From the IMG/VR virus record IMGVR_UViG_3300045738_000569, positions 1 through 27,026 of that record: a stretch of DNA of 27,026 nucleotides. One strand, 5' to 3'. A program made the position numbers and the translations under genes. The notes below the pieces were generated by a model. It saw only the letters and a program-made list of their open reading frames with translations, searched no databases and had not been told where the DNA came from. Shown here one piece after another: positions 1,505 to 14,876 of this stretch; positions within the stretch are counted from its first letter, which is position 1, and the number at the start of each line of letters is the position of its first letter. Source of the DNA: a virus.

Positions 1505-3094
1505 CTAGTATCCCATAAACATTCCCTGCGGCATCGCGTCTTCCTCATAACTCGACTGGGCTTCCTCAAATATGTCACCCATCGAAGGACGGGTAAGTGA
1601 GTTGAATTGCTCCCAGCTTCCCCCAATTCCGCCGCCACAAGCAATACAACCCATTACCGCGTCAGCCCTATCAGGACTGTCCAAACCCCGCGCCCGCATA
1701 ACATCCTTCCGCTCCAAACCCAACTTCCCCGTCCGACTAACCTCAGCTCGCCGAGTCACCATCTGCTGGTGCAACATACTGTCACCCGGTAAAATTATCT
1801 CCCGCTTCTCAATCGCCCGCGCAGCCGTGTGCCACATCTCCGCACTCCGGTTCGCGTAACGGTCGTCAAACGGCTTCGCCCCGAAGTTAACCCTGTGTAT
1901 GTCATACCCCGCATCCATCAACGCATCGCACAATGGCAAACCCAGTCCCCCTTCATCAGCATAAATCTCATCCTGTGTCAAGTTATGTTTTTTGATTAAA
2001 TTGATTATCTTGCCAATAGTCGTGTTCGTGTTCTTCTCCCGCCAACAAACCATATCCAAAATCCGGTTCCCATGACGCAAAGCAAACACACACTCATCAC
2101 CGCCAGCAGCAAAGTCTATGAAGGCAACACGCATCCCCAACTCCAACTCAGGTGGGTTCTGCAAACACTCCTCCAGTGCCTTCAGGTTCAACACCAACCC
2201 ATCAGAACTGTCATCAACGAACTCACCATAAATCATCGAGCGCACCAACGGACTGTTCTCACCATACAACTCTATCTGCGACTCAATCCATTCCTTCGTC
2301 AAATGCGGGCAGTCATATGCCGTAACAGTATGACACTTCCAAAACCTGCGCTGCTTGGTAAACGATTCATAGAACGCACCAGCCGACGCACCGGGACTCG
2401 ACATCACCAATAACCGACTGGGTTGACATCTAGCTATGGCTGTGAAGATAGCATCAGGGACTGTCTTCGCCTCATCAACAATCATCAAGAGATTCTCAGT
2501 CGGCCCCTGCCTATGCCAACCCTCGAACTTACCCGGATCATTAGTGCTAAACCCAATCGCCCTAGACCCGTTCGCATAGTGCAACTCACTGCTGGTAATC
2601 CTCCAACCCTGACCCAACCCACCAACATACTTCCGCAACGTAGGCCAAAGCTGCCCCTCGACCTGACGCCAAACACCAGCAGTCGTCACCACCAAACTCT
2701 CAGGGAACCTAACCATGTGCCACAGGATCGCACACGCAGCAATCACACTAGTCTTCCCGCTACCATTCGCCGCCTTCAAGGCAACCCGACTCTCCTTCTC
2801 ATTCAAATCCACCAACACCTTGCACTGCCAACCATACGCCCCAACATCAATAAACGTCTGCGGAAAGTTCTCAAGCAGACTCGCCTCCTCCAACGCATCG
2901 TGATCCTTCGCAATCCGCTCAAGCGCAGCTCTGGACTTCCTCTCACTTGGGGATAGGATCAAGGAAGGTGCAGGAGCCTTCTTAACCTTCTTGGTAGACA
3001 ACACCACATCGAACTTACCCTCCTTGGGCTTCGGGCCAGTCCGCTTGATCTTGGGCTGCTGCTTCAGCACCACCAACTTCTTCTTCTCCGCCAT
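1505..3094 (-). CDS. terL: Terminase large subunit (ATPase and nuclease), 529 residues
   Basis: This is the motor that cuts and pumps phage DNA into the procapsid. The N-terminal ATPase shows a Walker A motif AANGSGKT (108-115), a Walker B stretch LLMIVDEA (202-209) with Asp207 and catalytic Glu208, and a coupling motif MSSPG (231-235). The C-terminal RNase H-like nuclease shows acidic residues in FIDFAAGGDE (326-334), IYADEGG (377-383) and DSPDRADAV (472-480). The length is normal for the family. The first 50 residues are Lys-rich. The ATG shares a base with the stop codon of the small subunit (TAATG), so the two are probably translationally coupled. Identification rests on the visible motifs and the terS-terL-portal order, and is secure. 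Confidence 0.95.
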   Translation of the reverse strand: MAEKKKLVVLKQQPKIKRTGPKPKEGKFDVVLSTKKVKKAPAPSLILSPSERKSRAALERIAKDHDALEEASLLENFPQTFIDVGAYGWQCKVLVDLNEKESRVALKAANGSGKTSVIAACAILWHMVRFPESLVVTTAGVWRQVEGQLWPTLRKYVGGLGQGWRITSSELHYANGSRAIGFSTNDPGKFEGWHRQGPTENLLMIVDEAKTVPDAIFTAIARCQPSRLLVMSSPGASAGAFYESFTKQRRFWKCHTVTAYDCPHLTKEWIESQIELYGENSPLVRSMIYGEFVDDSSDGLVLNLKALEECLQNPPELELGMRVAFIDFAAGGDECVFALRHGNRILDMVCWREKNTNTTIGKIINLIKKHNLTQDEIYADEGGLGLPLCDALMDAGYDIHRVNFGAKPFDDRYANRSAEMWHTAARAIEKREIILPGDSMLHQQMVTRRAEVSRTGKLGLERKDVMRARGLDSPDRADAVMGCIACGGGIGGSWEQFNSLTRPSMGDIFEEAQSSYEEDAMPQGMFMGY

Positions 3095-3474
3095 TAGTTG
3101 CGAGACTTGATGCGCTCAGGAATCAAAGACAACTGCGAAAGTAGCTCTGGTGAGATAGTACTCTTCGGAGCTGCTGCCCCGCTCGCTGCCGTCTTCGGAT
3201 TCCAGTGCGGGAAGCGGGATTGCAGGAAAGCCAATGCCAACTTCCCATCCCGACTATCCATTATCTTCCTCACCAGTGCCTCCTCAGCTTGAGCCTGTGC
3301 CGCCATCACCTGCGCATTCAACTTCGGTTTCTTCTTCCGAAGCCCATCCAGTCTACGAGGCGAAATGCCACAAGCCCCACAAGCCGCCGTCAAACTCAAC
3401 CCCAACGTCAGCTTGTCCAAGAACATCTTCAAAGTGTCCCCCGTCAAATTCTTCTTAACCGAGATGTCAGCCAT
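3094..3474 (-). CDS. terS: Terminase small subunit, likely, 126 residues
   Basis: The small subunit binds the packaging start site and recruits the large subunit. The protein has a helix-turn-helix-like segment, LSLTAACGACGISPRRLDGL, followed by an Ala/Glu-rich helix and the ending FLQSRFPHWNPK. This pattern is typical of small terminases with an N-terminal DNA-binding domain. It immediately precedes and overlaps the large subunit gene. Start choice is uncertain: ATG 3474 (MADISVKKNL) gives a compact domain, while an in-frame ATG at 3585 would add 37 residues of low-quality sequence. Both sites have a poorly spaced ribosome binding site. The gene is first in the leftward operon, about 180 bases downstream of the predicted start point of the promoter at 3663-3690. 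Confidence 0.8.
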   Translation of the reverse strand: MADISVKKNLTGDTLKMFLDKLTLGLSLTAACGACGISPRRLDGLRKKKPKLNAQVMAAQAQAEEALVRKIMDSRDGKLALAFLQSRFPHWNPKTAASGAAAPKSTISPELLSQLSLIPERIKSRN

Positions 3475-3662
3475 TCCCGAAAGGTACCATAAGTTCAAAA
3501 CCTGTCCAGTTCTTTTCGGGGGGTATACATACTCTACTGACTGATGGGGGGTGGTGGCCCTCCCTAGTGCCTCTCTATTAGACATTCCCTGTCCAACCCC
3601 CTAGACAATGCCTTGTCCTACCCTGCCGGTTTCCAGAGCAAAGCCCTTGCCGCCATTGGCGC

Positions 3663-3690
3663 AATTTAAGTACTGCGCAGTACTTGTCAA
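3663..3690 (-). promoter_or_regulatory. Leftward promoter of the packaging operon
   Basis: Read on the minus strand there is a perfect -35 box TTGACA (3690-3685), a 16-base spacer and a -10 box TAAATT (3668-3663; 4 of 6 consensus). Transcription would start near 3656 and run into the terminase genes. The spacer is filled by the palindrome at 3668-3685, so a protein bound there would block RNA polymerase. Confidence 0.6.
3668..3685. promoter_or_regulatory. Palindromic operator, copy 1
   Basis: The sequence AAGTACTGCGCAGTACTT is a perfect 18-bp palindrome. Identical 18-bp cores occur at 5261-5278 and 9951-9968. This copy lies between the -35 and -10 boxes of the leftward packaging promoter, the classic position for a repressor site. 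The binding protein is not known. The ribbon-helix-helix protein at 10012-10212 is a candidate. Confidence 0.75.
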
Positions 3691-3912
3691 AAGAGTGAAA
3701 AGCTTTTGAAAGAATTGGCACACGTCTTACCCCTTTCCCTGCCAGTGAATGATACCGCACAAGCCCTTTCAATCGCACAGAATGCCCTGCCCACGGGGCT
3801 TGAATGCCCAACCCTTTGCCACGGCATTGGCAACGCCTCACAAGCCCTCACAAGGGCAGCAAATGGCTCCGGCTTTCAAGTGCCGGACAAGGGCTTGAAA
3901 GTTTGTGAGTAA
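3691..3912. other. Hairpin-rich intergenic DNA without a convincing gene
   Basis: The stretch holds several short inverted repeats in a row: GCCC/GGGC around 3783-3800, TTGCCA/TGGCAA around 3815-3832, GCCCT/AGGGC around 3845-3858 and CCGGC/GCCGG around 3870-3887. It also holds loose repeats of AAGCCCTT and GAATGCCC. Similar motifs continue to the left into 3590-3660. A 68-codon frame exists, but it starts with TTG, lacks a ribosome site and has odd composition. The region could be an origin element, a packaging recognition site or a non-coding RNA. Confidence 0.4.
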
Positions 3913-3929
3913 CCCACGGAATTATATTC

Positions 3930-3957
3930 TTTTCAATGCTACCATTTCGTGTATCAT
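3930..3957 (+). promoter_or_regulatory. Candidate rightward promoter for the 4093 gene
   Basis: TTTTCA (3930-3935; 4 of 6), a 16-base spacer and TATCAT (3952-3957; 5 of 6) form a plausible sigma-70-type promoter. Transcription would start near 3965, leaving a leader of about 128 bases that contains the hairpins at 3993-4074. The -35 match is modest. Confidence 0.4.
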
Positions 3958-3992
3958 GGAGGCCGTTCATTGATATATGCAGTTGAAACGTA

Positions 3993-4074
3993 GGGCAACG
4001 AATTTTATTCGTTTGCCCGTGGGTGCAAACGGCGGAGGAAATTCACTGTGAATAACCTCCGAGAATTCACCCAC
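3993..4074 (+). promoter_or_regulatory. Structured 5' leader: two tandem hairpins before the 4093 gene
   Basis: Hairpin A pairs GGGCAACGAAT (3993-4003) with ATTCGTTTGCCC (4007-4018), with one bulged base and a 3-base loop. Hairpin B pairs GTGGGTG (4019-4025) with CACCCAC (4068-4074), then CGGAGG (4033-4038) with CCTCCG (4056-4061), then ATTCA with TGAAT around a CTG loop (4041-4053). The 4093 gene's own ribosome site AAAGGA lies just after hairpin B, so the structure could tune translation, RNA stability or transcription through this leader. It matches no riboswitch I recognise. Confidence 0.5.
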
Positions 4075-4092
4075 ACGAAAGGATAATATCTA

Positions 4093-4938
4093 ATGAAAAA
4101 GATATTGAAAGACAAACTGCTAGCAGCTGCAACAGCCGCACGCATAGCGCAATCCGCATACGCAACCGCAGTGTCCGAAGCATCTCTTATTTTTGAGAGT
4201 GCAAAGGATGCAGCAGTTGAAACCAACAACGCAGTTATTGCAGCGTTTCACGTTGTCGTGAATGAGTTGTTAGAGGCGGGCGTTAAGTCCGGAGCCATCA
4301 AAACTACCCTCGAAGAGGGCGGGTTTAGTGGCGTTTGGTCAACCGTTATTCAATGGGTTACCGAGTGGAATGCTTCAAAGGGCATCAAAGGTGATTCCGG
4401 AGGCGGAGGCGGAAACAAAAGTGAGACCAAAGCCGGAGCCGAAGCCGGAGCCGAAGAAGCAAAAGCCGACACGGAGCCGGAGCAAACGCCGAAAGGGCAG
4501 CAAACGCTACGCGCAAAAGTAATCAATAAAATTGGTTACGTTTACGCCAAAGCATTCACCGCGCGCATCGGTCAACTGGAAAAGGGCAATGAAATAGAAT
4601 TCACGAAAGGTGAATTGATTCTGACCGCTGACCAGCAAACCAAGTGTGCCGAAGCTGCGCAGACCGTAGCGTTGGCCATTAGCAGGATTGACCCCAACCC
4701 GTTCGCAACCGCCCTTGGCGGTTTGCTTGAAACGGAAACGGAAACGGAAACGGAAACGGAAACGGAGCCGGAAACAGATACGGAGCCACAGCCGGAGCCA
4801 AAAACGGAAGCGGAGCCGGAGCCGGAAACGGGCCTTGATCGCATGAAAGGGGAACTCAAGAAAATAGACAAATATCTTGAGGGCAACTCCAGTAAACGTG
4901 AAACAAAGCCCCGCAAAAAAGCCGGAGCAAAAAAGTAA
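4093..4938 (+). CDS. Unrecognised protein with Glu-Thr repeat linker, 281 residues
   Basis: No family is recognised. Residues 1-55 are Ala-rich and helical (MKKILKDKLLAAATAARIAQ). Residues 60-95 (GVKSGAIKTTLEEGGFSGVWSTVIQWVTEW) resemble a compact helical domain and could bind DNA. A Gly run and Ala/Glu-rich linker follow, then a second folded segment (about 140-210) ending FATALGGLL. Next is a Glu-Thr/Glu-Pro tract (about 213-247) encoded by tandem hexamers, and finally a basic Lys-rich tail. The ribosome site AAAGGA precedes the ATG. The gene has its own candidate promoter, a structured leader and a terminator directly after it, so it is a self-contained unit beside the iteron cluster. That position suggests a replication initiator or regulator, but this is inference. 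Confidence 0.75.
   Translation: MKKILKDKLLAAATAARIAQSAYATAVSEASLIFESAKDAAVETNNAVIAAFHVVVNELLEAGVKSGAIKTTLEEGGFSGVWSTVIQWVTEWNASKGIKGDSGGGGGNKSETKAGAEAGAEEAKADTEPEQTPKGQQTLRAKVINKIGYVYAKAFTARIGQLEKGNEIEFTKGELILTADQQTKCAEAAQTVALAISRIDPNPFATALGGLLETETETETETETEPETDTEPQPEPKTEAEPEPETGLDRMKGELKKIDKYLEGNSSKRETKPRKKAGAKK
4729..4830 (+). repeat. Tandem hexamer array within the 4093 gene
   Basis: Six perfect copies of GAAACG (4729-4764) are followed by about eleven degenerate units (GAGCCG, GATACG, GAGCCA and similar) up to 4830. The unit length keeps the reading frame and encodes Glu-Thr and Glu-Pro dipeptides. GCCGGA-type hexamers also occur around 4430-4500 in the first linker. Such arrays can change length by slippage without breaking the frame. 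Confidence 0.9.
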
Positions 4939-4954
4939 AGTCCCTACGTTAAAC

Positions 4955-4985
4955 AAAGCCCCACGGGTAAAACCGTGGGGCTTTT
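4955..4985 (+). terminator. Rho-independent terminator after the 4093 gene
   Basis: GCCCCACGG (4958-4966) pairs perfectly with CCGTGGGGC (4973-4981) around the loop GTAAAA, followed by TTTT (4982-4985). Three A residues before the stem also pair with the T run, so a leftward transcript could end here too. It lies 17 bases after the stop codon. Confidence 0.92.
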
Positions 4986-5026
4986 CTTGTGCCTTAATAT
5001 AATGCGCGCCCCCGCGCGCGCGAGGG

Positions 5027-5132
5027 ATATATGGGCGGCACATATATGGGCGGGATATATGGGCGGGCAATTAGTCGGTCATATATGGGCGGCAAACTGG
5101 GTTGTCAATCAATATGGGCGGATTATGGGTGG
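5027..5132. repeat. Iteron-like direct repeats (six copies), candidate replication origin
   Basis: The 12-mer ATATATGGGCGG occurs exactly at 5027, 5042, 5055 and 5081. Diverged copies CAATATGGGCGG and GATTATGGGTGG start at 5110 and 5121. Start-to-start distances are 15, 13, 26, 29 and 11 bases. The array is preceded by an alternating GC tract (5004-5022) and followed by AT-rich DNA (5135-5210). Iterons next to an AT-rich unwinding region are the usual build of an initiator-dependent origin. They could instead be operator sites for the promoter just downstream. Confidence 0.65.
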
Positions 5133-5155
5133 CAAACCATGTCAATGTTATATTC

Positions 5156-5184
5156 TTGACTTATGGTATTAAATATGGTAGTAT
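5156..5184 (+). promoter_or_regulatory. Strong rightward early promoter
   Basis: TTGACT (5156-5161; 5 of 6), a 17-base spacer and TAGTAT (5179-5184; 4 of 6) are helped by an extended -10 TG at 5176-5177. Transcription would begin near 5191, giving a leader of about 450 bases before the cell-wall hydrolase gene. It lies directly after the iteron cluster, so initiator binding may affect it. Confidence 0.6.
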
Positions 5185-5257
5185 ATATATTCTGATTGGA
5201 GTAGTTCCAATTTCTTTGACATATAGGAGATGGGCGAGGCACAACGCCTGAAAACTT

Positions 5258-5281
5258 ATTAAGTACTGCGCAGTACTTAAT
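5258..5281. promoter_or_regulatory. Palindromic operator, copy 2 (24-bp perfect dyad)
   Basis: The shared core AAGTACTGCGCAGTACTT (5261-5278) is extended on both sides (ATT and AAT) to a 24-bp perfect palindrome, the longest of the three copies. It lies roughly 70-90 bases after the predicted start of the promoter at 5156-5184, where a bound protein could block elongation. No good promoter overlaps it directly. Confidence 0.75.
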
Positions 5282-5302
5282 CGACCTTAAAACAACAACT
5301 CA

Positions 5303-5481
5303 GTTACCAGCCGAACAAACGGTGAGAGTCTCTAGGAGATGCGCTGGAGAGGATAGTCTGTACGAATCCTAAAGGTAACAGTGAATGGCAACCACGTAGC
5401 AACTGGCCCATTACACAGCAACGTGAGGCTCACATGGGAGAGCCGCATACAGCAGCGTAGTCAGGATGAAAAGGCTGACTA
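5303..5481 (+). other. Structured long 5' leader of the early operon
   Basis: Between the early promoter and the gene at 5644 there is no convincing coding sequence. Pairings visible on the plus strand are GTTACC (5303-5308) with GGTAAC (5374-5379), enclosing AGGAT (5350-5354) with ATCCT (5366-5370). Further on are AATGGC (5384-5389) with GCC-c-ATT (5406-5412), GGCTC (5427-5431) with GAGCC (5440-5444), and TAGTCAG (5458-5464) with CTGACTA (5475-5481). A 25-codon frame at 5466-5543 lacks a well-spaced ribosome site. From 5482 to 5643 I see only the ribosome site of the next gene and an unused GTGAAAGGATAG motif near 5550. The leader could be a regulatory RNA or processed small RNA. Confidence 0.45.
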
Positions 5482-5643
5482 AACAAATTCAAACTCACAC
5501 ACTGGTAGAGCGAATCAAACAAACCGCCATGACCTTTGGATAGTTGAACGTGAAAGGATAGAATCTAACAACTATTACTGGTGCTGTGAGTAATCCCAAT
5601 TTCTAATTTCTAGTGTCCAACTAACAACCAGAAAGGAAACAGA

Positions 5644-6180
5644 ATGAAAGGAATAATACTAACACTAACAATGGCAATGAGTGTTGTCGGCTGGGAACCA
5701 GTCGATGCACCCATTGGAAATGCTCGCGCCATAGTCGCCGCCGTTATAATAGGCGAGGCAGTTGGCGAGGGTAAGCAGGGAATGCGGTCTGTGTATGAAG
5801 TTATACACACCCGTGCTTCACATCAGGGAACAAGTTGCCTCACTGAGGTAATGAAGAAATCCCAATTCGACAGCATCAAGAAATATCGCTCCAACCCATT
5901 CGGGTTGGTAAGGAGGTGGCGCGAGAAAGAGCCGGTAAACTATGCGTGGGTGTACTATGACCTGTTAAAGGGAGTGCCAATCACGATGCTTACTGTGCAG
6001 GACAATGCGCCCAAACTAAACACAAACAGAGCTGACCACTTCTATGCCTGTAAGGGCAAGAATAAGATAGCCCCGCCATACTGGACTTACATGAAGGTGA
6101 AGCGGGGAGGCATAGAGGTAAAAGTACCCATCAAGGGTAAAGTTATTGGCAATCACAAGTTCTATAAGCTGGTTAAATGA
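5644..6180 (+). CDS. SleB-like cell-wall hydrolase (endolysin), 178 residues
   Basis: This is a peptidoglycan hydrolase of the SleB type (Hydrolase_2 family), which acts on the glycan strand. The core motif IIGEAVGEGKQGMRSVYEVIHTR (about 35-57) contains the probable catalytic Glu38. Downstream are the conserved SQFDS (73-77), ADHFYA (130-135) and GNHKFY (169-174). Residues 1-17 form a short hydrophobic segment after a Lys, consistent with a signal peptide or signal-anchor, so the enzyme may be exported by the host without a holin. GAAAGGA precedes the ATG at good spacing. It is the first gene after the long early leader, an unusual place for a lysis gene. No holin or spanin gene is recognised nearby. 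The family call is strong. Its role in lysis is inferred. Confidence 0.9.
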   Translation: MKGIILTLTMAMSVVGWEPVDAPIGNARAIVAAVIIGEAVGEGKQGMRSVYEVIHTRASHQGTSCLTEVMKKSQFDSIKKYRSNPFGLVRRWREKEPVNYAWVYYDLLKGVPITMLTVQDNAPKLNTNRADHFYACKGKNKIAPPYWTYMKVKRGGIEVKVPIKGKVIGNHKFYKLVK

Positions 6181-6191
6181 AAGGGAATACA

Positions 6192-6512
6192 ATGGAAAAA
6201 GAATATAGAGAGTTCACCGAGGCTATTGCCCGTAACCTAACTGGGGCAGTAAAGGAGCTAAATGATAGTGACCTTGAGAGCAGGGACTCTGTCGAACACG
6301 TTCCAGAAGAAGATATAGCCGTTGCTATATCTTGCTACATCTTCGCTCAATGCGAGGCTCAGGAAGATTGGTGCGTGCAGGATAAGGGCGTATTCGGCGG
6401 ATGGAATCGGGTATGTGTCAACCATCAGGGATGGTGGGCTAGTAAGTCACACTGTACCAAGGACTTCATGGAGAAGCTGGGCGAGCGTTGCCCGTGGGTT
6501 AAGACATTCTAA
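6192..6512 (+). CDS. Hypothetical Cys/Trp-rich protein, 106 residues
   Basis: This is an unrecognised soluble protein starting MEKEYREFTEAIARNLTGAV. It has an acidic N-terminal half and a C-terminal half rich in Cys and Trp (CEAQEDWCVQ, WNRVCVNHQGWW, HCTKDF, ERCPW), which might bind metal or form a compact core. I chose ATG 6192 because AAGGGA stands 7 bases upstream. An in-frame ATG at 6177 overlapping the hydrolase stop (ATGA) is possible and adds five residues. It follows the hydrolase directly, so it is probably in the same transcript. The function is not known. Confidence 0.65.
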   Translation: MEKEYREFTEAIARNLTGAVKELNDSDLESRDSVEHVPEEDIAVAISCYIFAQCEAQEDWCVQDKGVFGGWNRVCVNHQGWWASKSHCTKDFMEKLGERCPWVKTF

Positions 6513-6546
6513 CCGTAACAACGTAACAAAATGAAAGGGAATAACT

Positions 6547-6747
6547 ATGACAATGAAGCAATTCGTAACTGTAATTGACAAGAAAGTATGGGCTGAGATG
6601 GGCGTAAGTGTCCATGATCTACCTGACATAGACTTCTATGCCTACTATGATGAGGACTTGTCTGATGGCGAGGCTGACTCAATGGCTAGTGAGGTAGTCA
6701 GCGACATCAAGTATGACAATGGCTATGATCTTTGGCTAGTTGATTAA
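6547..6747 (+). CDS. Small acidic protein, 66 residues
   Basis: The protein starts MTMKQFVTVIDKKVWAEMGV and is strongly acidic (YYDEDLSDGEADS), ending in GYDLWLVD. Small acidic phage proteins are sometimes DNA mimics or host-factor inhibitors. Nothing here proves that. AAAGGGA precedes the ATG at a normal distance. It is the last gene before a roughly 300-base non-coding gap that holds a leftward promoter and three inverted repeats. Confidence 0.6.
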   Translation: MTMKQFVTVIDKKVWAEMGVSVHDLPDIDFYAYYDEDLSDGEADSMASEVVSDIKYDNGYDLWLVD

Positions 6748-6906
6748 AGGTATAATGAATCGTCAATCCAATACAGACCTCCCCTTAAACCAACCGAATC
6801 CAATCATTGGTCATTAAGGATTAGGTAAGTGGATTATCATGAGTCTTATAGAATATCGGACGCCACTGATCAGGCTGCCTGACGTATGCCTTGTTACTAA
6901 AGTCAG

Positions 6907-6934
6907 ATTATATACCCTCACAAGATTGTGTCAA
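6907..6934 (-). promoter_or_regulatory. Consensus leftward promoter inside the rightward early region
   Basis: On the minus strand, TTGACA (6934-6929) and TATAAT (6912-6907) are both perfect consensus boxes, separated by 16 bases. Transcription would start near 6900 and run against the early genes. No open frame of note follows on the minus strand, so the product would be an antisense or other small RNA. A perfect TATAAT on the plus strand at 6751-6756 lacks a -35 box. Confidence 0.6.
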
Positions 6935-6941
6935 CTCTTAT

Positions 6942-7031
6942 TTGTTCACAGGCTACCGAGGTTACACCCCGTTCGTATCTGTGAACAAGTGTCCGCGAAC
7001 ACTTAACACTAACAACTGCTGACCAGCAGTT
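6942..7031. repeat. Three tandem inverted repeats
   Basis: IR1 pairs TTGTTCACAG (6942-6951) with CTGTGAACAA (6979-6988) across 27 bases. IR2 pairs AAGTGT (6987-6992) with ACACTT (6999-7004) across 6 bases. IR3 pairs AACTGCTG (7014-7021) with CAGCAGTT (7024-7031) across 2 bases. All arms are perfect. They fill the gap between the leftward promoter at 6907-6934 and the next rightward gene, and could be protein sites or a folded RNA leader. Confidence 0.75.
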
Positions 7032-7041
7032 AAACAACATT

Positions 7042-7221
7042 ATGAACCCACAAGGCACATACCCACAAGGCGAGCGTGAGGACTTCCGAGAGTGGAAGGA
7101 ACGTGAGCTATACTACGAGGCTCAAGCCTCTAACAAACCAAGAGAAAGGAAAGACAATGAAACATATGCCAAAACACCCAAAGGGCTTCGGCCCACTAAC
7201 AGCAACGCCCCTAGAGGGTGA
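7042..7221 (+). CDS. Possible small charged protein, 59 residues
   Basis: ATG 7042 opens a frame MNPQGTYPQGEREDFREWKE that is Glu/Arg-rich and looks protein-like for its first 40 residues. It has no clear ribosome site, and its last 65 bases overlap the start of the next gene in another frame. The overlap and the weak start lower confidence. If real, it is the first gene after the three inverted repeats. No family is recognised. Confidence 0.35.
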   Translation: MNPQGTYPQGEREDFREWKERELYYEAQASNKPRERKDNETYAKTPKGLRPTNSNAPRG

Positions 7222-7516
7222 CACCATTCAAGTCGAAAGGGACGATGGATGGGACAAGGCCAAGGTGATCGATTACGTGGATCACTTGCAGTCCTTGGTC
7301 GGTAAACCTGAGCCACACGGCACAACTCAACCGTTCGTCGATGGGATTCGTAAGCACCGGGATGAGGACGGGATGTATTCGGGCATCATCGCCTATGCGT
7401 TTGGCGATGGCGTACAGGATAGCCGCATTGCGGGAGGATCACCAACCGTTGGCTACACCGTAAGCAAGACAATGCGGACACCATTCAACTCACTGATACT
7501 GGAGGAAACCGAATGA
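7157..7516 (+). CDS. Hypothetical protein, 119 residues
   Basis: The protein starts MKHMPKHPKGFGPLTATPLE, with a likely beta-rich body (GDTIQVERDDGWDKAKVIDYVDHL) and a C-terminal part GIIAYAFGDGVQDSRIAGGS. No family is recognised. I chose ATG 7157 because AAAGGAAAG lies just upstream. An in-frame GTG at 7076 would add 27 residues that overlap the previous possible gene. Its stop codon overlaps the next ATG (ATGA), which supports coupled translation in the early operon. Confidence 0.6.
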   Translation: MKHMPKHPKGFGPLTATPLEGDTIQVERDDGWDKAKVIDYVDHLQSLVGKPEPHGTTQPFVDGIRKHRDEDGMYSGIIAYAFGDGVQDSRIAGGSPTVGYTVSKTMRTPFNSLILEETE

Positions 7517-7686
7517 AGATGTTCAAGGAACTAACACAGGAACAGACGGCTGAGTTCAAGGATTGGGCGCGGCAGAACTATAAACCACTAACGGAAATCA
7601 AGGGAATATGGCATCCCGTGATACAGGCGGAGTGCGCCCTAATAAACAATGAGACATACGGAAGGGGGAAACCAGATGAAAGTTAA
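7513..7686 (+). CDS. Small conserved-style phage protein (FxxWARxNY...WHPVIQAEC), 57 residues
   Basis: The protein MKMFKELTQEQTAEFKDWAR continues with NYKPLTEIKGIWHPVIQAEC. This FxxWAR-NY-P...WHPV-x-x-EC pattern is recalled from small uncharacterised proteins in early regions of many tailed phages. It starts inside the stop codon of the preceding gene (ATGA) and runs 11 bases into the next gene. It is too short to be a domain of known function. The recognisable pattern and the tight coupling support it as a true gene. Confidence 0.65.
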   Translation: MKMFKELTQEQTAEFKDWARQNYKPLTEIKGIWHPVIQAECALINNETYGRGKPDES

Positions 7687-8332
7687 AGGATCAGCTATCT
7701 TCTATGAGAATAGCAGGATGAGGGCGGTTATCACTGGTCTGGATAGACCGTCCGATAACATCAAGACAGGCAGAATGGGTCAAACATTCATGCTCAAGAA
7801 GCAATACCCTACCCGTGACGTGAAGGGTGCTGGGTGTAAAGGGTGTCCAGTATGGGAGGAATGCTACGTCAACTGGAGCCAAGCTCCCGCTGCCGTACAT
7901 CGTACCGCTGAGGCAGACAGATATGCCTTTATGGGGGCTGAGGAGGAGGAGAGGCTATCTGACATACCCTTACGCATCGGATCGGCTGGAGAGCCAACCT
8001 CAGTCCCTTACGGGGTATGGAAGAAACTACTTAAACTATCCCCCAACTGGACAGGTTATACCCACAAGTGGAGACTGCCCAAGTTCCAGAACTTTAAGGA
8101 GTTCTGTATGGCAAGTGTACACTCAGTGGAGGAGGCGCGTGAGGCACAGGCCATGGGCTGGCGTACGTTCAGGGCTGGGGGCATAGATGAGCCAGCGGAG
8201 GGTGAGATAGAATGCCCCAACTCCACCAAGGGAATCCAATGTGCCGACTGTACCCTATGCAAAGGGTCAGCCATCAAGGCCAAATCAATCTACATCAAGG
8301 GTCACGGCCCTTGGTGGAAGAAGAAAGGATAG
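7676..8332 (+). CDS. DUF7227-like phage protein, 218 residues
   Basis: The sequence matches the style of a widespread phage family, which I recall as DUF7227: GLDRPSDNIKTGRMGQTFML (21-40), CKGCPVWEECYVNWSQAPAAV (54-74), IGSAGEPTSVPYGVW (101-115), WTGYTHKWR (125-133), CMAS (144-147) and AQAMGWRTFRAGG (157-169). A terminal Cys cluster follows (C180, C189, C192, C195). The Cys clusters suggest metal or Fe-S binding. The biochemical role is not established to my knowledge. ATG 7676 is preferred because AAGGGGGA stands just upstream. An in-frame ATG at 7649 is an alternative. Gene context is early operon. Confidence 0.75.
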   Translation: MKVKGSAIFYENSRMRAVITGLDRPSDNIKTGRMGQTFMLKKQYPTRDVKGAGCKGCPVWEECYVNWSQAPAAVHRTAEADRYAFMGAEEEERLSDIPLRIGSAGEPTSVPYGVWKKLLKLSPNWTGYTHKWRLPKFQNFKEFCMASVHSVEEAREAQAMGWRTFRAGGIDEPAEGEIECPNSTKGIQCADCTLCKGSAIKAKSIYIKGHGPWWKKKG

Positions 8333-8335
8333 ATC

Positions 8336-8536
8336 ATGGGCAGAACTAAAGATCAATACATCGATCACCTAAATGATCTTGATGAACTTAGACGGGAAGG
8401 TCGGCATAGGTACGACATAAACACTCTCGATCAGGAAGACTCCCAGAATAGGGAGATTCAGGATCGGAAACCAGACAAGAACAAACCAAAAGAAAGGGAC
8501 AGCAATGTCTTTAATGATAAGCGGAAGCAAGTCTGA
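8336..8536 (+). CDS. Small hydrophilic protein, 66 residues
   Basis: The protein MGRTKDQYIDHLNDLDELRR continues as a highly charged, probably disordered or helical chain rich in Asp, Arg, Asn and Lys. No family is recognised. AAAGGA stands six bases before the ATG, and the gene starts a few bases after the DUF7227-like gene. Its last 32 bases overlap the next gene in another frame, a common operon layout. Confidence 0.55.
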   Translation: MGRTKDQYIDHLNDLDELRREGRHRYDINTLDQEDSQNREIQDRKPDKNKPKERDSNVFNDKRKQV

Positions 8537-9350
8537 CTATGTGAGCGAGGCATACCTCGCCACTCGTGAGGCACGTAATAAAACCAACACACACGTAGCC
8601 GTGCCACACCACTGGTTCGTGGATAACATCAAGAAACCCTTGGATGACAGGAAGATTCGGTATGAGAACATACAGATAGCCCTGTCCAAGGATGAAGAAA
8701 CCATGTTCGGTACGATGGAACTACCGGAGGTGTGTGTGCCATCAGTGGACGCACAGTACCAGTTGTTCCGCCAGACCAAGCTGAGTCCCATAGACAGGCA
8801 CAGCCTGTTGGTGAGGCTCTCGAAGAAAGGCGCACTACCATCGTCACGCATCGTTCAGGTGGAGGAGGAATATCTCCGCGAGGATGAGGAGGTGTTACGG
8901 GATGAGCATTCCCGTGGGCATAACGTGTGGCGTCTGCTTCAAGCCTTCACGGAGAAGCAGAAGACAGGTGGCGGGTTCCAAGGCGCACAGTCCAGACTGG
9001 ACGCAACGGCGCAGAGAACCACTGAAGCAACGAAGCTGTTCCTCAACCACTGCGACCCTGATCCGGGCAGACCCAAGCTCAAGGAGATACTGGAGCAACC
9101 ACTCCTACTCAATGAGGAGTTCAGCTTGGCCCAATCCTACAAGTATATGCTGGGATTCAGGCACGGCAACCGACTCAATATGTGTACGGGTGTGGTGCTG
9201 GGAGTGACAGTCATGGTGTGTGACAATATGTGCTTCAGCGGAGAGATCGAGGTGAGGCGTAGGCACACCATGCACGTCAAGCGTGACCTGCCACTGATGA
9301 TTGAGAGTAGCATCGACAAGCTGCTCATGGGTGGTATAATCGCTGGGTGA
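8505..9350 (+). CDS. DUF932-like phage protein, 281 residues
   Basis: The C-terminal part HGNRLNMCTGVVLGVTVMVCDNMCFSGEIEVRRRHT (about 223-258) has the VCDN-x-x-FSG signature of a phage and plasmid family that I relate to DUF932. A well-conserved segment CVPSVDAQYQLFRQTKLSPIDRHSLLVRL lies near residues 76-104. The middle part is charged (QVEEEYLREDEEVLRDEH). The function of this group is unknown. Plasmid members are sometimes found near anti-restriction genes. AAAGGG precedes the ATG. The stop codon overlaps the next gene's GTG start. The signature is clear by eye, but the exact family name is uncertain. Confidence 0.6.
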   Translation: MSLMISGSKSDYVSEAYLATREARNKTNTHVAVPHHWFVDNIKKPLDDRKIRYENIQIALSKDEETMFGTMELPEVCVPSVDAQYQLFRQTKLSPIDRHSLLVRLSKKGALPSSRIVQVEEEYLREDEEVLRDEHSRGHNVWRLLQAFTEKQKTGGGFQGAQSRLDATAQRTTEATKLFLNHCDPDPGRPKLKEILEQPLLLNEEFSLAQSYKYMLGFRHGNRLNMCTGVVLGVTVMVCDNMCFSGEIEVRRRHTMHVKRDLPLMIESSIDKLLMGGIIAG

Positions 9351-9712
9351 CGACCCAGAGAATAACCAAGTGGGGACTTCAGGTTCTCATTGGAGAAGAA
9401 GATGGAATAGAACTTTGGGAAACAATGCCAAGGTTCAATCACTACGGTGGGGTTCGCCGCGAAGTTGGAGAGACATTCCAGCATAGCGGCGCAACCTACA
9501 CCGTTATGGAAGTAACTCCCTCCGCAGCTTTGTGTAAACAAACTGCTGCAAGAATCGTCCAATACACTACGGACGATGGAGTGGAGAAGGAACATAAGAT
9601 CAGGGGTAGCAGCACCATCCGTGTTGCTGCTTATCGTGAAAGGAATACGAAGATTGAACGAGGAGGAAGAAAACGCAAGGGACTTCTGCGAGGAACTACG
9701 CTCGCTGGTTGA
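9347..9712 (+). CDS. Hypothetical protein with GTG start, 121 residues
   Basis: Translation probably begins at GTG 9347, which overlaps the stop of the preceding gene (GTGA). The protein reads as beta-rich (WGLQVLIGEEDGIELWETMPRF, GETFQHSGATYTVMEVT) and ends in a basic tail (RGGRKRKGLLRGTTLAG). No family is recognised. The last 59 bases overlap the following gene. The coupled start and long clean frame support expression, although no strong ribosome site is visible. Confidence 0.5.
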   Translation: MTTQRITKWGLQVLIGEEDGIELWETMPRFNHYGGVRREVGETFQHSGATYTVMEVTPSAALCKQTAARIVQYTTDDGVEKEHKIRGSSTIRVAAYRERNTKIERGGRKRKGLLRGTTLAG

Positions 9713-9872
9713 CGTTCACGAGGTTCGAGGTTGTACACGAGGGCGCATGGGTCAAGCACTCATGGGCTGCGGCATGACCACCCTGAACGAATCAACAGAT
9801 GATAAGGAGAAGGTCAAGGCTATGGCTAGAGAGATGGTCAAGGCTTGGTCTGAAATCATCGACGAAGATTAG
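9654..9872 (+). CDS. Small acidic protein, likely TTG start, 72 residues
   Basis: The frame LNEEEENARDFCEELRSLVD to KAWSEIIDED has no suitable ATG near its natural beginning. TTG 9654 follows AAAGGA by nine bases and is the best start. An ATG at 9576 would add 26 residues deep inside the previous gene. The body is helical and acidic, and includes MGQALMGCGMTTLNESTDD, a pattern seen in small phage proteins of unknown role. It is the last gene before the terminator at 9901-9946, so it closes the early operon. Confidence 0.5.
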   Translation: MNEEEENARDFCEELRSLVDVHEVRGCTRGRMGQALMGCGMTTLNESTDDKEKVKAMAREMVKAWSEIIDED

Positions 9873-9900
9873 TGCGGCTTGTTAGGGCTGCACTGAACAC

Positions 9901-9946
9901 GGCGGGGTCGGGGGCTTATCCTTTCTTCTCCGGCTCCGCCCCTTTT
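9901..9946 (+). terminator. Terminator closing the first early operon
   Basis: GGCGGGGTCGG (9901-9911) pairs with CCGGCTCCGCC (9930-9940), 11 base pairs including two G-U pairs. The loop is 18 bases, and CCTTTTAATT follows. It lies 29 bases after the last stop codon and just before the third palindrome, so it insulates the regulator cassette. Confidence 0.75.
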
Positions 9947-9949
9947 AAT

Positions 9950-9969
9950 TAAGTACTGCGCAGTACTTA
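9950..9969. promoter_or_regulatory. Palindromic operator, copy 3
   Basis: The shared 18-bp core (9951-9968) with one extra matched base on each side makes a 20-bp perfect palindrome. It ends six bases before the -35 box of the promoter that drives the ribbon-helix-helix gene. That placement fits either autorepression or activation. Confidence 0.75.
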
Positions 9970-9974
9970 TATCA

Positions 9975-10003
9975 TTGACTTGTACCGCTATGGGTAGCAT
10001 ACT
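9975..10003 (+). promoter_or_regulatory. Promoter of the ribbon-helix-helix gene
   Basis: TTGACT (9975-9980; 5 of 6), a 17-base spacer and CATACT (9998-10003; 4 of 6). The predicted start point, near 10010, lies only a base or two before the ATG at 10012, so the transcript would be leaderless. Confidence 0.55.
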
Positions 10004-10011
10004 TGGTGCTT

Positions 10012-10212
10012 ATGGAGGATGAGTCATTAGAAGAGACAACCGCTGTCGTCACGAAGATCAACCCAGACACAATTAGGTCTGGTCTTCATGTCAGGATCAC
10101 CTCCCTACACCATGACAAACTATCAATGATTGTCAGGGAGACGGGGAGGTCGAGGAGGGACATAGTAGAAATGCTGATAGACATGGCTAAGGTTGGACAA
10201 TACTCAGAATAA
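10012..10212 (+). CDS. Ribbon-helix-helix (Arc/CopG-like) DNA-binding protein, likely regulator, 66 residues
   Basis: The C-terminal part has the ribbon-helix-helix layout: a strand GLHVRIT (24-30), a helix SLHHDKLSMIVRETG (31-45), and after the turn RSRRD a second helix IVEMLIDMAKV (51-61). Proteins of this fold dimerise and insert the paired strands into the DNA major groove, and they usually repress their own promoter. Residues 1-22 are an acidic extension. There is no ribosome site before ATG 10012, and the promoter places the transcript start almost at the ATG, so leaderless translation is likely. A TTG at 10003 is less plausible because it overlaps the -10 box. The gene stands alone between two terminators with the palindrome upstream. 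Confidence 0.7.
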   Translation: MEDESLEETTAVVTKINPDTIRSGLHVRITSLHHDKLSMIVRETGRSRRDIVEMLIDMAKVGQYSE

Positions 10213-10215
10213 TCT

Positions 10216-10283
10216 GGAGGGGTTGCATCGCTTTTCAAGGGCATCTACTGCCCACACCTCCTTGCGATGTGATCCCTCCTTTT
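10216..10283 (+). terminator. Terminator after the regulator gene
   Basis: GGAGGGGTTGCATCGC (10216-10231) pairs with GCGATGTGATCCCTCC (10264-10279), 16 pairs including G-U pairs, followed by TTTT. A second hairpin, GGGCA/TGCCC (10239-10253), sits in the loop. The next gene starts 17 bases later without a visible promoter, so some read-through is likely. Confidence 0.8.
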
Positions 10284-14051: not shown

Positions 14052-14366
14052 ATGCCTGAAGAAACAAAACCAATGCTGACCTTCTCGAAGGTCGCCCGCA
14101 AAGCCTACCTCTACAAGAACGAGAAGAAGAGGGAAGGCTCAAGAGACCCTGACTATAAGGGTAAAGTGTTCGACCTAGACCTGAGCAAACTCAAGGAGAT
14201 TGCCAACGAAGATGGCATCATCGAAACCCTTCACCTGTCCGGCTGGATCGAGGAAGACCAGAGCGGAACCTCACGGGTCGGCATCGCCGTCCAGAAGGGT
14301 GTCCCTCAAGACGGAGAAGCTGCTGTAACGGAACCTGCAAAGGAACCTGCTGAAGCACCATTCTAA
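14052..14366 (+). CDS. Small OB-like or SSB-like protein, 104 residues
   Basis: The protein reads KNEKKREGSRDPDYKGKVFD (22-41), ETLHLSGWIEEDQSGTSRVG (59-78) and IAVQKG. This DYKG...SGWIE...SG...V pattern is seen in small phage and bacterial proteins thought to have a beta-barrel core. The C-terminus KEPAEAPF ends in Pro-Phe after acidic residues, like the tail of single-strand DNA-binding proteins. Together with ERF and the nuclease, a single-strand binding role is reasonable but not shown. AAGGAG precedes the ATG. A hairpin overlaps the stop codon. Confidence 0.55.
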   Translation: MPEETKPMLTFSKVARKAYLYKNEKKREGSRDPDYKGKVFDLDLSKLKEIANEDGIIETLHLSGWIEEDQSGTSRVGIAVQKGVPQDGEAAVTEPAKEPAEAPF

Positions 14367-14440
14367 TCTTACTGATCCAGTAAGATTGTCTCTCCCCTTG
14401 CCGTTTCGTAATACTGTGGTTCCGGCGGGGGGAGAGTTTT
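14365..14440 (+). terminator. Hairpin pair with terminator
   Basis: AATCTTACTG (14365-14374) pairs perfectly with CAGTAAGATT (14378-14387). Then CTCTCCCCTTGCCG (14390-14403) pairs with CGGCGGGGGGAGAG (14423-14436), 14 pairs with two G-U pairs, followed by TTTT. The second is a good rho-independent terminator. The first overlaps the stop codon of the preceding gene. No clear new promoter is seen before 14475. Confidence 0.8.
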
Positions 14441-14474: not shown

Positions 14475-14876
14475 ATGAAAGTTAAAGGTCATTGGATAGA
14501 AAAGAGGGACGAAGATTACCTCAAGATGGCAGCGCAAGCTACGGCACTGGCGTTCGAGGTGGACGCTGATGCGGTGCTGGGCAGGAGCAGGGTGCAACCT
14601 CTGGTCTTTGCCAGACAGACAGCCTACTGGCTGATGCACAACATCATGGGATACTCCTACTGCGAGACCGGACGGATGTTTGACCGTGATCACGGCGGCA
14701 TTATGCACGGTATCAAGAGAGTCGAGGAGGTGCTGGATCAGGACTCGCGGAGCAAGCACGACAACGGTAGCTGGGCCAACGAGATCAGGGCATCGAAGGA
14801 AAACTTTCGGCGGTTCTATATGGTCTACAAGGAAGTCAAACTAAAGGAGGTCGAAGATGTCGCTGAGATTACCTGA
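14475..14876 (+). CDS. Stand-alone DnaA domain IV-like DNA-binding protein, 133 residues
   Basis: Residues about 35-87 match the C-terminal DNA-binding domain of the bacterial initiator DnaA: RSRVQPLVFARQTAYWLMHN (37-56), a turn, SYCETGRMFDRDHGGIMHGIKRV (61-83). The FDRDHGGIMHG part corresponds to the DnaA signature around the GRDH motif that reads the DnaA box. The ATPase and other DnaA domains are absent. The protein could bind DnaA boxes to recruit or compete with host DnaA, or bind the phage origin. AAGGGAAAGG precedes the ATG. The 20-base overlap with the next gene indicates coupling. The domain match is clear. The role is inferred. Confidence 0.85.
   Translation: MKVKGHWIEKRDEDYLKMAAQATALAFEVDADAVLGRSRVQPLVFARQTAYWLMHNIMGYSYCETGRMFDRDHGGIMHGIKRVEEVLDQDSRSKHDNGSWANEIRASKENFRRFYMVYKEVKLKEVEDVAEIT

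Follow-up and report, generated by a model that had tools for sequence, protein, structure and literature searches.

A palindrome of 18 bases, AAGTACTGCGCAGTACTT, is present in three identical copies in DNA from an uncultured marine phage, raising the question of which protein recognizes it and what that protein controls. The DNA analyzed (here called the window) is an entire IMG/VR record, 27,026 bases long and lacking end repeats. Our analysis points to a phage-encoded DNA-binding protein acting as a genome-wide regulator, most likely the one encoded at 4093 to 4938, and we put the probability of this reading at roughly two in three.

Three identical palindromes in the window

The exact copies of AAGTACTGCGCAGTACTT lie at 3668 to 3685 (site 1), 5261 to 5278 (site 2), and 9951 to 9968 (site 3), and a search of the whole window allowing up to three mismatches returned these three and no others, just as the original prediction had reported. 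For sites 2 and 3, the identity reaches 22 bases. Dinucleotide shuffles of the window gave no match to AAGTACTGCGCAGTACTT, in agreement with the earlier view that such dyads do not arise by chance, and a 7+7 palindrome occurring twice was never seen in first-order Markov shuffles of the window and three other genomes. A circular form of the record was considered and set aside: there is no terminal repeat, and the in-frame join of the two ends, which would fuse a portal N terminus to a protein that does not resemble a portal, was taken as chance. We therefore treat the record as a fragment, and since it lacks end repeats, additional copies may sit on the missing sequence.

The packaging genes, including those for the large terminase (1505 to 3094, minus strand) and the small terminase (3094 to 3474, minus strand; the ATG at 3474 is the start kept in relatives), run leftward, divergently from an early region that is read rightward and opens with the gene at 4093 to 4938 (plus strand). 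This gene encodes a 281-amino-acid ORFan, the proposed cognate regulator, and is flanked by sites 1 and 2. Site 1 lies between it and the packaging genes and forms the 16-bp spacer of a promoter-like sequence on the minus strand, TTGACA-16-TAAATT (3663 to 3690), which is a consensus match only but is the best promoter match between 3400 and 5700 (10 of 12 positions). The earlier placement of site 1 in the spacer of the packaging promoter thus holds for this match; however, a second motif closer to the small terminase gene, TGGAC.-16-TA....T (approximately 3481 to 3508, minus strand), is conserved immediately ahead of the small terminase start in the majority of relatives for which the region is available, and in the window it carries no copy of the palindrome. 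The leader that follows this second motif is very short. The description of all three sites as intergenic stands once a doubtful 87-amino-acid open reading frame with a GTG start (3578 to 3841, minus strand) is disregarded.

Site 2 is located in the early-operon leader, as originally described, 324 bp past the 4093-4938 gene, and begins 76 bp beyond the end of a promoter-like TTGACT-17-TAGTAT (5156 to 5184, plus strand), a position that fits a transcription roadblock. Site 3 has a terminator hairpin on one side and, on the other, the promoter-like TTGACT-17-CATACT (9975 to 10003, plus strand) of a small gene at 10012 to 10212 (plus strand). This promoter-like sequence is conserved in relatives, and the site ends 6 bp ahead of it, close enough to uphold the statement that the two abut. 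The small gene encodes a 66-amino-acid protein that is ribbon-helix-helix-like by inspection and that had no Pfam or PHROG match.

The surroundings of the small gene have features of their own. The loop of the terminator-like hairpin (9900 to 9944) contains TCCTTTC, the complement of the phage ribosome-binding sequence GAAAGGA, and a hairpin with this loop is also found upstream of the small gene in most relatives. After the gene, positions 10217 to 10281 form a conserved structured RNA element that is also found in L085 to L094 and L016; it has 18 predicted pairs, 6 of them with compensatory changes (n = 10 sequences), its unpaired ACCTCCTT resembles the anti-Shine-Dalgarno tail of 16S rRNA, and it had no Rfam match. 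Relative to L087 and L090, L089 has ~111 extra bases between the palindrome and the small-gene promoter, with a promoter-like sequence of their own. Elsewhere in the window, a single 23-base palindrome, AATCTTACTGATCCAGTAAGATT (14365 to 14387), lies upstream of a DnaA-C-domain gene (14475 to 14876); its spacing is unlike that of the three sites, and other relatives have their own operator at this position.

Dispersed palindromes in related phages

A search with the large terminase yielded 330 relatives, and the top 80 were retained as loci; 12 longer relative records were examined whole. Exact AAGTACTGCGCAGTACTT was absent from all other IMG/VR contigs, and its one match in 257 Gb of GTDB genomes is about the chance expectation. 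The unit conserved beyond the window is instead a 16-bp core, AGTACTGnnCAGTACT, which is dispersed in relatives, and the position at the small-gene promoter is kept in several of them. The fetched relatives contained 29 perfect and 16 one-mismatch copies of AGTACTGnnCAGTACT (a few counted twice, as loci overlap), compared with no perfect and 0 to 2 one-mismatch copies for 20 scrambled palindromes of the same composition. Twelve core sites were found in G004 (25.7 kb) and 11 in G001 (37 kb).

De novo searches revealed other repeated palindromes at matching places in other relatives: TTTACTGnnCAGTAAA in L010 and G008, GGTTGACnnnGTCAACC in L027/L029, ACTCTCGCGAGAGT in L060, ATTGTGTnACACAAT in L062, L066, and L068, AGGTTGAnnnnTCAACCT in G003, and CAAACGnnnnCGTTTG in L054 and G007, among others. 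This one clade of uncultured marine phages has at least 10 palindrome types. A search of IMG/VR with the AAGTACTGnnCAGTACTT form returned, apart from L131 (a relative already known, the L085 contig), just two unrelated single matches. Across contigs, the sites are symmetric dyads of 14 to 18 bp, numbering 2 to 14 per contig; the records of G001, G004, and G008 have 8 to 14 each, and the window fragment has 3. The sites of G007 and L054, CAAACGGTATCGTTTG, show an off-centre asymmetry not seen in the symmetric sites elsewhere, with one orientation in most G007 copies and in all three L054 copies. The nearest named phages by large terminase (33 to 37%), which infect Akkermansia, differ in layout and lack repeated palindromes.

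The positions of these sites are also conserved. A palindrome of the phage's own type occupies the interval between the terminator and the −35 element of the small gene in G000, L085, G008, L046, G007, G001, and G004, which, together with the dispersal of the core, gives good support to the idea of a phage-wide operator set. The exceptions are G002, where this interval has no palindrome, and L027/L029, where the palindrome at the small-gene promoter is unlike the main type of the genome. In L010 and G008, the terminase promoter match has a palindrome at its start point. A promoter-like match was found near 21 of 108 sites (10 to 13% expected), and most sites are at gene boundaries or gene ends without a recognizable promoter.

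Covariation of the palindrome with a neighboring gene

The gene tracked by the palindrome is the one at 4093 to 4938, which went unnamed in the original prediction. In relatives, the slot divergent from the small terminase encodes proteins of ~200 to 360 amino acids with low mutual similarity. Among 19 contigs, 8 of 9 pairs of detectably homologous slot proteins had the same palindrome type, a result reached in 0 of 20,000 label permutations; in G010/L062, homologous proteins go with different palindromes. In 13 of 16 contigs, the slot gene had sites no more than 550 bp away on each side (random mean, 0.8; reached in none of 5,000 randomizations). These permutation figures are optimistic, because the contigs share ancestry and because slot gene and palindrome type were partly recognized together.

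Similarity of the phage backbone does not explain this covariation, as judged from terminase comparisons. Terminases were at least 88% identical in 18 pairs, of which 7 had a palindrome in common and 11 did not, and phages whose terminases are 91 to 98% identical but whose slot genes differ have different palindromes. Thus, L010 and L011 (terminase, 96.7% identical) and L058 and G010 (98.4%) differ in both slot protein and palindrome. Gene and palindrome are also absent together: G002, G005, G006, G009, L013, L073, L078, and L079 have no slot gene, and none of them has a 7+7 palindrome repeated even twice.

The protein encoded at 4093 to 4938

The window protein comprises an HTH-like segment (residues ~51 to 95), a linker rich in Gly and Pro-Glu-Thr, and a basic C-terminal tail. 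BLAST detected no homolog among the other contigs, and IMG/VR held no direct relatives; because the protein is an ORFan, its role is assigned mainly by position. No Pfam or PHROG family supporting repressor function was found for the slot proteins, the only named hint being a weak match to HTH_23 (E = 0.052), and two slot proteins searched against a phage collection had no match. Four proteins associated with AGTACTG-type palindromes were aligned (the A1 profile) and share a conserved T-x2-N-x4-W-R followed by a Gly-rich linker. A low-confidence model places helices with HTH spacing at this motif and predicts a helical C-terminal part; a fold search with this model gave nothing significant. 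At its HTH-like segment, the window protein scored 27.6 against the A1 profile and 28.8 against L011 in hhalign, above all 60 shuffles (maximum for the A1 profile, 16.5), so that a link to the AGTACTG family is suggested by a weak profile match. The single-sequence fold of the window protein (pLDDT 45) was unreliable and uninformative.

Alternative explanations

Dispersed 16-bp dyads near a gene of DNA-binding type would also be expected of a partition (centromere) or replication-initiation system, of the ParB/parS or KorB-like kind, in which control of transcription is secondary. The failure to find an integrase and the presence of copies near a DnaA-C-domain gene in G001, G003, and G004 are in keeping with such a system. 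However, the ParA ATPase (PF13614) was absent from the 12 records, there was no Pfam match to ParB or KfrA, and sites occur not only between late genes but also at promoters, both of packaging genes and of regulatory ones. We consider this explanation unlikely.

The original prediction had named the small 10012-10212 protein as a candidate binder, which would then regulate itself and the rest of the genome, and site 3 does adjoin its promoter at a conserved place. Comparison of relatives showed, however, that the operator sequence does not follow the sequence of this protein. The protein is identical in L087, L088, L089, and L090, yet the site of L088 is different and degenerate; its G008 counterpart is 72% identical but accompanied by another palindrome; and G002 retains the protein despite having no repeated palindrome, as do L032, L091, and L092 with no palindrome at that promoter. 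It is decidedly improbable that this protein is the binder, and its gene is a probable target of the operators instead.

Since the repeats lie between genes and the dyads are foldable, they might work as RNA hairpins, either processing sites or terminators. This is very unlikely: no T-run is present, the center often leaves a loop of only 2 bases, and imperfect sites read in the transcribed sense contain 13 G-U and 14 A-C mismatches, so that there is no strand-specific tolerance of wobble pairs, which disfavors a role in RNA. Finally, occupancy by a host regulator such as LexA, also suggested originally, would account for operator-sized dyads near promoters with the GTAC half-sites of LexA boxes (short dyads, cyanobacterial or other), but we give it hardly any weight, as the spacing differs, the copies are many per genome and often at gene ends, relatives without the slot gene have no palindrome set, and, most tellingly, the palindrome changes along with a phage gene at 91 to 98% terminase identity, rather than staying constant in these terminase-matched phages.

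A candidate genome-wide regulator

We thus return to the regulator encoded next to the packaging genes, with the 4093-4938 protein as the likely binder. A dimer on each dyad is the simplest reading of the sites, and the protein would probably dimerize and contact DNA through its HTH-like segment. Bound at site 1, it would regulate both the packaging promoter and, divergent from this, its own gene; at site 2, it would block elongation into the early operon; and at site 3, it would control the small regulatory gene at 10012. In relatives with 8 to 14 sites, it may act genome-wide in a stoperator-like manner, because most of those sites are at gene boundaries without a recognizable promoter. We infer that it is a repressor and that immunity between phages is the selective reason for the system; gene and palindrome change jointly from one phage to the next, which is what an immunity-type regulator with diversifying specificity would lead one to expect. 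The records searched yielded neither an integrase or resolvase nor ParA or an HTH_3 repressor, which leaves a lysogenic role without independent support.

The stoperators of cluster A mycobacteriophages (L5/Bxb1) are phage-specific sites spread over the genome, a minority of them in promoters; in L5, a monomer binds 13-bp asymmetric sites that follow the direction of transcription and number over 20 per genome (PMC6550527, PMC9283540). The system described here is similar in that its sites are phage specific and also placed around the regulator gene, and in that regulator and site consensus vary jointly from group to group, the regulator having an HTH-like segment here and an HTH there. In the relatives G001, G004, and G008, with 8 to 14 sites each, the sites are also dispersed and mostly outside promoters, whereas the window fragment has 3. 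It differs in the symmetry, length, and number of its sites and in its protein, an ORFan that appears to be all helical and has no detectable relationship to the cluster A repressor, and in the lack of a detected integrase or ParA. By analogy with L5, the sites at gene ends without a promoter suggest roadblocks, and the best reading is a function like that of mycobacteriophage stoperators carried out with symmetric sites and an unrelated protein. KorB, KorA, and KfrA have been described as global regulators of IncP and IncU plasmids with palindromic dispersed operators, KfrA being an alpha-helical DNA-binding protein (PMC11790492, PMC7783346). With these plasmid systems, the dispersal of palindromic operators on a replicon is shared, whereas the proteins here are hypervariable, are encoded in phage genomes, and have no Pfam match to those families.

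More tentatively, and at somewhat less than even odds, the slot proteins may constitute an undescribed family of hypervariable regulators, with exchangeable specificity cassettes that carry their own flanking operators and define immunity or exclusion groups among viruses without an integrase. Operators that are phage specific and dispersed, and that covary with their regulator, are familiar chiefly from the mycobacteriophages. If our reading is correct, abundant marine phages would have a second, unrelated system of this kind, with symmetric sites, and the strategy would have evolved more than once. It would also provide a ready panel of natural regulator-operator pairs with many specificities and would allow immunity groups among uncultured viruses to be predicted from sequence alone.
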